Shown here one piece after another: positions 21,284-24,898 of a stretch of 25,049 nt of DNA. Within the stretch, counting starts at the first letter, position 1; each line of letters begins with the position of its first letter. A model generated the notes under the pieces. It saw only the letters and a program-made list of their open reading frames with translations, was not told the origin of the DNA and did not search any database. Position numbers and translations under genes: made by a program. The stretch spans positions 1 through 25,049 of the forward strand of contig DHJA01000265.1 of assembly GCA_002404095.1 (NCBI GenBank), read 5' to 3'. This stretch comes from Planctomycetaceae bacterium UBA4732 (GTDB lineage Bacteria; Planctomycetota; Planctomycetia; Gemmatales; Gemmataceae).

Positions 21284-23500
21284 ATGCTCCGCGAAAAAGA
21301 AATTGACATTCGCCGCAACCGCGCCGCAAAGGAGGGGTTCAGCATCCAGAACCTCGGCCGTAACCGCGTTTTCAGCGACTATAAAGTGACCAATCTGACC
21401 AACCATCACCAATACCGCGTGTCGATTCGCGGCTTCGATGTGGGCGACAATCGTTGTGAGTGCCCCGACTTCCTCGCGAACACGCTTGGAACCTGCAAGC
21501 ATATCGAGGCCGTGCTGATCTCGTTGCGCGACGAGACGCCGCCGCAGTTGCGGCGCCGTAAGGCCGCCGTCACGCATCCGGAGATTTATCTCCAATACAC
21601 AGAGCAATTGCGCGTCGGCATCCATTTGCCGCCGCGCCACTCCGACCAGTTGCACGCCTTGGCAGAGACGTTTTTCGACGGCCAGGGGTTATGGAAGGCG
21701 GAGGACCACTACCAGAATCTGATCGAGGCGGTGGCTGGCGTGCCGGAGCAGGTGACGACTTTTTCCGACGCGATGCAGTTCATGGAAGGGGAAATCGAGC
21801 GCCAGGAAATGGCCGGCCGCGAGCGCGATTGGCTCAATCAGCTGGAGCGCGAGGAGCCGTCGCCAGTGTTGTGCGATCTGCTCAAGGTGCCATTGTATCC
21901 GTACCAGATGCGCGGTGCGCTGTTCCTGGCGTGTCGCGGCCGCTGCGTCCTCGGCGACGACATGGGCCTTGGCAAAACGGTACAAACGCTCGCGGCGGTG
22001 GAATTGCTGGCGCGCGAGCGAGGCGTCGAGCGCGTGCTGGTGGTGGCGCCGGCCTCGGTTAAGTATCAGTGGGAGACGGAGATTCAAAAGTACACCGGCC
22101 GGCCGGTTCAGGTCGTGGAAGGCAACGCGGCGGAGCGACGCGCGCGCTATAAACAACCCACATTTTACCGCCTTATCAACTACGAAACGGTGGTGCGCGA
22201 CCTCCAGGAGTTAAACGCCTGGCAACCGGACCTAATCGTGCTGGACGAGGCCCAGCGCATCAAAAACTGGGAATCGAAGACCTCCAAAGCAGTAAAGCGC
22301 TTGTGCAGTCGTTACGCCGTGGTGCTGACGGGTACGCCGTTGGAAAACAAGTTGGAGGAACTATTCAGCATCGTGGCGTTCGTGGACGAGCGGCGCCTGG
22401 GACCGGCCTTCCAGTTTCGGCACGACCACCGCGTCGAGGACGCCAACGGCAAGCTGCTGGGTTATCGCAACCTCGACGCGCTGCGCGAGAAGCTGGCGCC
22501 GATCCTGCTGCGGCGGACGCGGGCCGAGGTGCTTTCCCAGCTGCCGGCCCGCACCGACACGACGGTCTATGTGGAAATGGCGGCCGCGCAACGTCCGCTG
22601 TACGCGGAACACCAGGCCACGCTCGGCCGGATCTTGCAGAAGAAATACCTGACGGAGCTGGACCGCCGCCGCATTCTCTGCTGCATCGCCAACCTGCGGA
22701 TGCTGTGCGACAGCACGTTCCTGCTGGACCATCAGACGAACGTATCGCCGAAGCTGGAGGAAGTTGCGGAATTACTACGTGAATTGCTGGGACCGGAACC
22801 GCATAAAGTGGTCGTGTTTAGCCAATGGGAAGTGATGTTGCGCAAGGCGGCGGAAGTGGTCGAGCAACTGGGCGTCGGCCATACGATCCTCCACGGCAAC
22901 ATACCGGGCAAGGATCGGCGAAAGTTATTGGAGAAGTTCCGCGACGACCCCGAGTGCCGGGTGTTCCTGAGTACGGACGCGGGCGGCACGGGATTGAACT
23001 TGCAGGCGGCGGACACGGTCATCAACCTGGAAGTGCCGTGGAACCCGGCGGTGCTGGACCAGCGCATCGCTCGCGTCCACCGCATGGGCCAGCATCGGCC
23101 GGTACAGGTGTTCAACCTGGTGACGCGCGACAGCATTGAGGAGCGCGTATTGCGGACATTGGAACAAAAGCGGTCGCTTTTGACGGAAATCTTTGCGGGC
23201 GGCAATGACGAGGTGGCGTTCGGGTCGTTGGGGCATCAGGCGTTTTTGGAGACGGTGCGCCAACTGGTCGGCGAGGAGGCGGTGCAGCTGACAGCTGCGG
23301 CGCCGCCGCCGACAACGGACGACGCACGGCTAAAGTTGGCCCAGGCGGGAGTGCAACTGTTGGAGGCGTTGGCGACAGTGATGGCGGAATCAACGCGGAA
23401 GGGTGGTCCGACAACGCTGCCGGCCGAGACGTTGCAGCGGGGGACGGCGGCGCTGCAGACGATATTGAAGAGCCTGGGGACGATGGAAGGGCCGGCTTAA
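21284..23500 (+). CDS. SWIM zinc-finger SNF2-family helicase/ATPase
   Basis: A 738-residue SWI2/SNF2 ATPase, which translocates on double-stranded DNA and remodels protein-DNA complexes. Residues 58-73 form a SWIM zinc finger (C58, C60, C71, H73). The ATPase core includes the Walker A motif GDDMGLGKT (224-232), the DEAH-type box DEAQ (321-324), LTGTPLEN (348-355), motif V STDAGGTGLNLQ (563-574) and motif VI QRIARVHRMGQ (593-603), all intact. A C-terminal helical tail (about 645-738) is Ala/Thr-rich. GGAGG lies upstream of ATG 21284. It follows the DUF2752 gene by 16 bases and converges on the alpha-CTD/sigma-4 protein gene. RapA is a related RNA-polymerase-associated SNF2 protein, so a transcription role is possible but unproven. 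Confidence 0.95.
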   Translation: MLREKEIDIRRNRAAKEGFSIQNLGRNRVFSDYKVTNLTNHHQYRVSIRGFDVGDNRCECPDFLANTLGTCKHIEAVLISLRDETPPQLRRRKAAVTHPEIYLQYTEQLRVGIHLPPRHSDQLHALAETFFDGQGLWKAEDHYQNLIEAVAGVPEQVTTFSDAMQFMEGEIERQEMAGRERDWLNQLEREEPSPVLCDLLKVPLYPYQMRGALFLACRGRCVLGDDMGLGKTVQTLAAVELLARERGVERVLVVAPASVKYQWETEIQKYTGRPVQVVEGNAAERRARYKQPTFYRLINYETVVRDLQELNAWQPDLIVLDEAQRIKNWESKTSKAVKRLCSRYAVVLTGTPLENKLEELFSIVAFVDERRLGPAFQFRHDHRVEDANGKLLGYRNLDALREKLAPILLRRTRAEVLSQLPARTDTTVYVEMAAAQRPLYAEHQATLGRILQKKYLTELDRRRILCCIANLRMLCDSTFLLDHQTNVSPKLEEVAELLRELLGPEPHKVVVFSQWEVMLRKAAEVVEQLGVGHTILHGNIPGKDRRKLLEKFRDDPECRVFLSTDAGGTGLNLQAADTVINLEVPWNPAVLDQRIARVHRMGQHRPVQVFNLVTRDSIEERVLRTLEQKRSLLTEIFAGGNDEVAFGSLGHQAFLETVRQLVGEEAVQLTAAAPPPTTDDARLKLAQAGVQLLEALATVMAESTRKGGPTTLPAETLQRGTAALQTILKSLGTMEGPA

Positions 23501-23507
23501 AAGGCGA

Positions 23508-23626
23508 TAAGAATTCGTTCTTGAAGGGGGGGTCAAACACGGCTGAAACAGCCGTGGCACACCCTATTTTCCCGTGTGCCACGGCTGTTTCAGCCGTGTT
23601 TCGATGACTTCAGGAACAGATTCTTA
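23508..23626. repeat. 119-bp nested palindromic element (MITE-like or bidirectional terminator)
   Basis: The outer arms 23508-23525 and 23609-23626 pair at 15 of 18 positions (TAAGAATTCGTTCTTGAA on the left). The inner arms 23535-23562 and 23574-23601 are a perfect 28-bp inverted repeat around an 11-base loop. Each inner arm also contains its own hairpin (CACGGCTG-AAA-CAGCCGTG). The element fills the gap between two convergent genes, and its right end includes the TAA stop of the alpha-CTD/sigma-4 gene. No transposase is present. Confidence 0.85.
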
Positions 23627-24898
23627 ATCCGTCACGGCAGCCACCATCCGCTCCCCACCGATCACCGCCAGCGCGAACGGCGCCTCGCGGCCGAGTAAGC
23701 GGGCCGCCTTGAGCAATCCCTCCAGGCGGAATTGGCTCCGAGTAATCCCCTTCGCTTGCAACTCCGCCTCCACGACCTCGGCGGCGGCTGGCAATCGTTC
23801 CGTCACTGCCAAGATTGCCTTGTCCAGCAGCGGCGTCGCACACTTTTTGTACTTCACGTCGCGCTTGACGCGGAAACAAATCTGGCGCACGCGCTCACGG
23901 GATAGGCCGTAAACTTCGCCGGCGGCTTGTAACGTCGCGCCGCCGGCGCCGTCGAAACCGTAGTGCTGGGCGGCCATGCGCACGTTGCGGTCGGTCGGCG
24001 ACGAGTGGCGGAAATTACAGGCATGAGATATGAGATAATTCAACTCGTCTTCGAGGATAGTGTGTTCCTCGGGTACGTCTTCCACGAAGTCCGCGCTCTC
24101 CAACGCAACGGTGTTGCCTGCCTCGAAGACGTCAATCGCGCGGAGCAGGTCGGAGAGGCAGTGATCCCCGAAGCCCGGCAGCGCCAGCATCTCACCGACC
24201 GTGTGTTCTTCCAGTTCATGGAGCCGGTCGCGGAATCCGTGGCGTTCCAGACAGTTGAACGTCCGGGGGTCCAATCTCAGGTTGCGCAGTGTGACGCCTT
24301 CAGGCATCTTCGGAAGGCGCAATTTGCGAACGGCCGAGAGTTTGATGGCGGCCCCGCGGTGATGGAACAGGCCGTAATGGGCGCCGGCCGGACTCCCCTC
24401 GACGCTCCAGTCTCTCGGCGAAGGTTTCGGTAAACCGTGCGCGAGGACCGTTTCCATGGACGTGAGAAGATCGACCAGACACTTCGCTCCGAAGCCGCCG
24501 ATCGAGAGAACTTCGCCGATGGTCTTGTCGCCCAGGTCGCGGACTTCTTGCAAGCGTCCGAGAATCTGCATTTTGTGGAGGCAATTGTACGTCCGCTGCG
24601 TCAGTTGAAGTTCTTCCAGTTGAATGTTTTTGGGCAGCCTGGGCAGCGCCTGGTTCTGGATGTTGTCCGGCAGAAGGTATAGCCCGACGCGCACCCGATC
24701 GACCAATTCCTCGGCCAGACGCAGGCAGACCTCGGGGCCGAACTGCGTCCACGACGACTCATCGAGATCGGCGAACCGGATCGGCTCTTTATAAGCTCGA
24801 CCGAGCAGCTTGCGTGGAACCAATACATCTTTGAGCAATTCGCCCAGGCCGTCGGGGGCGAGACGGCAGCCGGGACGCGGATATCGAGACAATGGCAT
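23624..24898 (-). CDS. Protein with two RNA polymerase alpha-CTD-like domains and a sigma-70 region 4-like HTH
   Basis: A 424-residue cytoplasmic protein, numbered from ATG 24898. The first alpha-CTD-like HhH domain (about 88-150) has LQLTQRTYNCLHK and later IGGFGAKCL. The second (about 196-258) has LRLDPRTFNCLER and LPGFGDHCL. Both keep the R-x-x-N-C pattern (R102/N105 and R212/N215) that in E. coli RpoA (R265, N268) contacts the UP-element minor groove. Near 320-345, TLQAAGEVYGLSRERVRQI is a sigma-70 region 4.2-like helix-turn-helix. The core polymerase-assembly domain of RpoA is absent, so this is not RpoA. It may bind promoters or polymerase as a regulator. A GTG at 24961 extends the frame but has no proper ribosome site; GGGGAGG lies 13 bases before ATG 24898. 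Confidence 0.85.
   Translation of the reverse strand: MPLSRYPRPGCRLAPDGLGELLKDVLVPRKLLGRAYKEPIRFADLDESSWTQFGPEVCLRLAEELVDRVRVGLYLLPDNIQNQALPRLPKNIQLEELQLTQRTYNCLHKMQILGRLQEVRDLGDKTIGEVLSIGGFGAKCLVDLLTSMETVLAHGLPKPSPRDWSVEGSPAGAHYGLFHHRGAAIKLSAVRKLRLPKMPEGVTLRNLRLDPRTFNCLERHGFRDRLHELEEHTVGEMLALPGFGDHCLSDLLRAIDVFEAGNTVALESADFVEDVPEEHTILEDELNYLISHACNFRHSSPTDRNVRMAAQHYGFDGAGGATLQAAGEVYGLSRERVRQICFRVKRDVKYKKCATPLLDKAILAVTERLPAAAEVVEAELQAKGITRSQFRLEGLLKAARLLGREAPFALAVIGGERMVAAVTD

Follow-up and report, generated by a model that had tools for sequence, protein, structure and literature searches.

A planctomycete protein with DNA-recognition domains from two subunits of RNA polymerase

Architecture of the chimera

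A stretch of 25,049 nucleotides from Planctomycetaceae bacterium UBA4732 (assembly GCA_002404095.1, contig DHJA01000265.1), hereafter the window, carries a gene whose product, here called the chimera, is the subject of this study. In this bacterial protein, modules with which two subunits of RNA polymerase read DNA are joined, without the parts that build the polymerase, in a complete open frame (Table 1). Hidden Markov models (HMMs) built from the protein's own family alignment place in order an N-terminal domain (NTD), the C-terminal domain of the alpha subunit (alpha-CTD), region 4 of sigma-70 (sigma4) and a winged helix. Pfam recognizes two RNA_pol_A_CTD stretches (PF03118, 4.7e-15) and Sigma70_r4 (PF04545, 3.8e-5, half a bit below Pfam's cut-off), and region 4 is complete. 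At E 10 nothing else in Pfam was matched: no alpha-NTD, no sigma region 3 and no sigma region 2, the domain of -10 recognition and melting. The first 88 residues have no Pfam family either. Models of RpoA in NCBIfam cover the CTD part of the protein alone, and the N-terminal assembly domain was not found with them. Since no alpha-NTD was matched, polymerase assembly is not expected of the chimera; with the alpha-NTD and sigma regions 2 and 3 missing, neither is nucleation or melting.

Table 1. Layout of the chimera gene and of the domains it encodes (positions in the window)
Feature	Positions	Strand	Basis or remark
Chimera gene	23624..24898	(-)	424 aa + stop; open reading frame, translation, homologues begin at same start
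N-terminal domain, residues 1-88 (SRYPRPG ... DLDE)	24635..24898	(-)	Family HMM map; predicted model mostly helical
alpha-CTD 1, residues 89-155	24434..24634	(-)	Pfam PF03118 at 91-146; R265 and N268 equivalents
alpha-CTD 2, residues 196-262	24113..24313	(-)	
Sigma-70 region 4 (4.1 and 4.2), residues 280-353	23840..24061	(-)	Pfam PF04545, PDB sequence matches, VIA to SigA region 4
Start of sigma4 recognition helix, residues 334-340 (RERVRQI)	23879..23899	(-)	
C-terminal winged helix, residues 354-424	23627..23839	(-)	Three helices and a strand pair in model; family HMM

An earlier sequence-only reading of the window had described two alpha-CTD-like domains and a sigma-4-like helix-turn-helix (HTH) in one protein, lacking polymerase-assembly domains and retaining in both alpha-CTDs the Arg and Asn (R265 and N268 equivalents) with which RpoA binds the UP-element minor groove, and the searches bear this out. 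The refuting case named there, generic helix-hairpin-helix domains with an HTH that fails to superpose on sigma region 4, was not borne out by the VIA structure comparison, in which the chimera matches SigA region 4. The three domains had thus been seen correctly, but the conserved NTD and the C-terminal winged helix, now evident from family HMMs and the structure model, had been overlooked.

The host genome encodes an RpoA CTD at C127, in a frame that enters from the edge of its stretch, and has a sigma-70 factor of its own at C289; the chimera comes on top of both. Its gene occurs once in the genome, where a search at E 10 gave no paralogue and, as the sole other match, the C289 sigma factor (0.14). 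alpha-CTD 1 is 36% identical to the host RpoA CTD. The same genome encodes a second non-RpoA protein with alpha-CTDs (L096:842-2536, at C126), in which TPR-like repeats, recognized by eye, accompany two canonical copies (79.3 and 77 bits).

Conservation of DNA-reading and core-binding residues

Residues were counted in 177 family sigma4 domains (176 at some positions) and in 302 alpha-CTDs of 178 proteins. R584, E585 and R588 determine the -35 specificity of sigma70 (PMC2613000). The base-reading helix that holds them is near invariant in the family, with R584 in 175/177, E585 in 172/177, R586 in 174/177, R588 in 172/177 and Q589 in 176/177. R554 (173/176) and L573 (175/177) are also kept. The host sigma-70 reads LTRERVRQI where the chimera reads LSRERVRQI, so that RERVRQI is identical. 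In the alpha-CTDs, R265 and N268, which contact DNA (PMC11434276), are present in 295/299 and 262/299 domains, C269 in 275/300 and G296 in 227/302, and the K298 position holds K in 207/302 and R in 54/302. The D259 position is acidic (D or E) in 218/290 domains. No conservation is seen at the E261 position.

Core-binding positions and -35 contacts of sigma4 were taken from one passage of PMC4943231, which lists both. The count did not extend to L598 among the former or to D570, Y571, K593 and R596 among the latter. For comparison, 28 control sigma factors were used, namely those of 27 loci (L048-L074, the best phylum matches of the alignment profile, hence chosen by similarity) and the host factor. 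Three listed core-binding positions differ from the controls. E555 is replaced by D in 89 and N in 77 family domains (together 166/176), whereas E stands in 27/28 sigma factors; R562 remains in 20/177 domains versus 27/28 sigma factors; and I565 is W in 151/177, versus L or I in 27/28. In the window protein the equivalents of E555, R562 and I565 are N305, H312 and F315, and those of F563 and G577 are Y313 and G327. This residue pattern argues against docking on core polymerase, as far as sequence can tell, although the F563 and G577 positions do not.

Structure comparison

Two proteins were modelled, the window protein (P0001) and a long family member (P0052), with predicted TM-scores (pTM) of 0.48 and 0.66. 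In the VIA rows for P0001, five fusions of sigma4 to the flap tip align through to residue 403-405 (aligned residues: 8d5v, 91/94; 7kuf, 83/85; 7kug, 91/96; 8cyf, 88/89; 6ido, 77/77), and the sigma4-only chains 4g6d, 6onu and 6ono end at 351-356. Four fusions of this kind reach residue 362-363 of the P0052 model. In both models the fusion alignments extend as far as helix 3 of the first winged helix and end there. The alignment ranges suggest that the chimera's own winged helix lies where the flap tip binds sigma4. The structure matches also include 3n97, a solved complex of alpha-CTD, sigma4 and UP/-35 DNA.

Family, variants and distribution

The window protein has 71 homologues at E 1e-3 and belongs, as one of the short members, to a larger family that has been little studied. 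The chimeric architecture described by the sequence-only reading is real, but the combination itself is not new. The family profile matches 398 protein clusters (120 of them listed). Going by title, planctomycetes account for 18 of 24 named loci and verrucomicrobia for 3. Some members are already named in their sources after the alpha-CTD or a sigma-like HTH.

Domain modules differ between members, and the mean column identity of the family alignment (A1) is 25%. In the window protein, and likewise in six close homologues of 422-434 aa, the first winged helix is the last domain. Long members carry additional winged helices, and the one that was modelled also has a C-terminal B3-like domain; none of these is found in the window protein. 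alpha-CTD 2 is canonical within the window's clade; most of A1 is degenerate or different at the same place. Two members diverge further: one has three tandem NTD-alpha-CTD units and no sigma4 match (L119:8298-10574), and another has one such unit and a stretch that matches long members in their C-terminal part, again without a sigma4 match (L120:7236-8624). For the proteins P0001-P0007 the mean pairwise identities are 0.78 (NTD), 0.88 and 0.82 (alpha-CTDs 1 and 2), 0.83 (sigma4), 0.75 (winged helix) and, for the two linkers, 0.67 and 0.40; these values suggest a maintained gene.

The chimera is rare among the genomes searched and its occurrence is patchy. With P0001 as query it was found in 1/61 genomes of a family draw, 1/102 of an order draw, 2/198 relatives and at least 4/392 of a phylum draw; each count includes the host genome, the draws overlap, and the last figure is a lower bound, at most four candidates per genome having been scored. 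An alignment-profile figure of 376/392 phylum genomes was rejected as a family count because the listed matches lie mostly in the sigma4 part and, as a rule, only two candidates per genome were scored. A phage origin was likewise rejected, no match to P0001 being present among 50,697 phage records at 1e-5. On viral contigs at least 16 loci were matched, each inside query residues 207-312 (sigma4 and just before), so these matches are uninformative on the fusion.

Neighbouring genes

The convergent neighbour of the chimera is an SNF2-SWIM helicase gene (21284-23500). It had no tblastn match at 27 other loci (L003-L026, L119-L121), none of them from the window's 424-aa clade and some of them short, and on this result it was rejected as a partner outside that clade. 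The two genes are separated by a perfect 28-nt inverted repeat with an 11-nt loop (23535-23601), a stretch with 71 matches on both strands genome-wide that thus belongs to an interspersed palindromic repeat family.

At 4 of the 27 loci (L012, L014, L015 and, in part, L005) a GHKL ATPase gene ends some 20-27 bases upstream of the open frame of the chimera, and in three of these four a small gene precedes it. In the verrucomicrobial loci L012:1198-3441, L014:3974-6318 and L015:5735-7976 the small gene is conserved and stands with the GHKL ATPase gene directly upstream of a long chimera, which makes a three-gene cassette possible. A search of 17 genomes, the genome of L005 not being one of them, found the GHKL protein in the three of L012, L014 and L015 (Verrucomicrobia or Limisphaerales) and not in the host.

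Neither P0001 nor P0052 matches a defence-system model of PADLOC at 0.01. The SNF2-type models do match the helicase, which is to be expected of the SNF2 superfamily, and the MzaA model matches L006, a long member, at 1.3e-4 in a stretch confined to sigma4.

Relation to known proteins

Bacterial proteins combining features of RNA polymerase alpha and sigma were reportedly described in the HARE-HTH paper of Aravind and Iyer in 2012, and the present architecture is a variant of that fusion. Like those proteins, it has alpha-CTD and sigma4 features together, and the long members also have winged helices; the window's clade differs by its short length, its pair of canonical alpha-CTDs and its single winged helix. 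For 45 members, the 25 families listed out of 38 include no HARE-HTH family, and a HARE-HTH identity of the winged helices found no support there. Among the open-licence papers listed, no title or abstract opening dealt with this fusion.

The chimera shares the fold and the R265 and N268 equivalents with the CTD of RpoA, but has tandem copies and no matched alpha-NTD; it shares the recognition helix and the full region 4 fold with sigma-70 factors, but lacks a match to regions 2 and 3 and has the three changed core-binding positions. Eight plasmid records (Pseudomonas, Variovorax and others), two of them also named after an alpha-CTD or sigma-like HTH, align with P0052 over a stretch that starts at sigma4 (residue 260-280), takes in the winged-helix part and ends at residue 572-647; the matched part is without an alpha-CTD. 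A related open reading frame of 362 aa on a Pseudomonas serbica plasmid (L025:7995-9080) has sigma4, its only Pfam match, near the N-terminus and weak winged-helix homology, and lies near DnaG-, DNA polymerase III alpha- and helicase-like genes. In PglW of type 2 BREX an alpha-CTD-like domain is followed by three winged HTHs; PglW differs in its kinase, nuclease and STAND domains, and sigma4 is unmentioned in that paper's passage on PglW, although a sigma-HTH-like domain is described for BrxL (PMC12839542).

Discussion

What does a protein built from the promoter readers of the polymerase do? The reading that we put forward, with moderate confidence, is that of a stand-alone DNA-binding regulator that probably occludes promoters. 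The alpha-CTDs would read an UP-like, A/T-rich minor groove and sigma4 a -35-like TTGAC site beside that tract; the winged helix would provide an extra contact or a cover over the sigma4 docking groove, and the chimera would not dock on core polymerase in the manner of sigma. Placed on the UP/-35 half of housekeeping-type sigma promoters, it would mainly exclude holoenzyme, resulting in repression or promoter selection. Because the base-reading helix is kept and three listed core-binding positions of sigma4 are changed, polymerase-independent occupation of promoters is the better reading, and occlusion would be its simplest consequence. Of the two functions proposed by the sequence-only reading, marking promoters independently of RpoA and sigma therefore appears to fit better than redirecting the polymerase. 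A broader version, which we offer tentatively, is that promoter reading has been split from docking across the family: the sigma4 helix and alpha-CTD contacts would be under strong selection, the core-binding pattern of sigma4 largely lost, the flap site perhaps self-filled, and housekeeping promoters addressed from outside the polymerase.

Several observations weigh against the stand-alone reading. Two listed core-binding positions are much as in sigma factors, G577 being kept in 163/177 and the F563 position being Y, F or L in 162/177 (Y or F in sigmas), and E to D at E555 is a conservative change. Several control sigmas are near identical, which leaves fewer than 28 independent cases, and R562 is listed under both roles. 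Other listed -35 contacts are kept less well, namely E574 (106/177; sigmas 20/28), E575 (84/177; sigmas 25/28) and T583 (T in 84/177, S in 92/177; sigmas T in 26/28), alpha-CTD 2 of the window protein has H at the K298 place, and conservation may stem from the fold as well as from DNA reading. In addition, the winged-helix overlap comes from alignment ranges on models of the pTM given above, and the phylum relatives G289 and G423 have no sigma4 match.

Some of these points would equally serve a protein that binds both DNA and polymerase and recruits or redirects the enzyme, as an activator or appropriation factor, through contacts of sigma4 with the beta flap or of alpha-CTD with sigma4. The completeness of region 4 (4.1 plus 4.2), the F563 and G577 positions and the acidic D259 position speak for such contacts, but E555, R562 and I565 are systematically unlike sigma factors, the flap site may lie under the winged helix and E261 is unconserved, and we regard recruitment as unlikely. 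We give a similarly low probability to a restriction- or conflict-like system in which the chimera serves as DNA reader, with promoter modules reused to recognize particular DNA: neither modelled protein matches PADLOC, the GHKL protein is confined to those three of the 17 genomes, the SNF2 gene is convergent and unmatched at the 27 other loci, all outside the window's clade, and the window protein ends ahead of any B3 domain. That the alpha-CTD and sigma4 folds are mere DNA-binding units without promoter specificity, in a general nucleic-acid or chromosome-organizing protein, is improbable, since backbone binding would not need the near-invariant sigma70 base readers R584 and E585, even though another non-RpoA protein of the genome has alpha-CTDs and modules vary across the family.

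The division between base-reading and core-binding residues makes promoter occlusion by a stand-alone regulator directly testable in vitro. If this reading is true, copies of recognition modules from the polymerase itself serve some bacteria in promoter regulation, and the promoters used by sigma become possible targets as a class.
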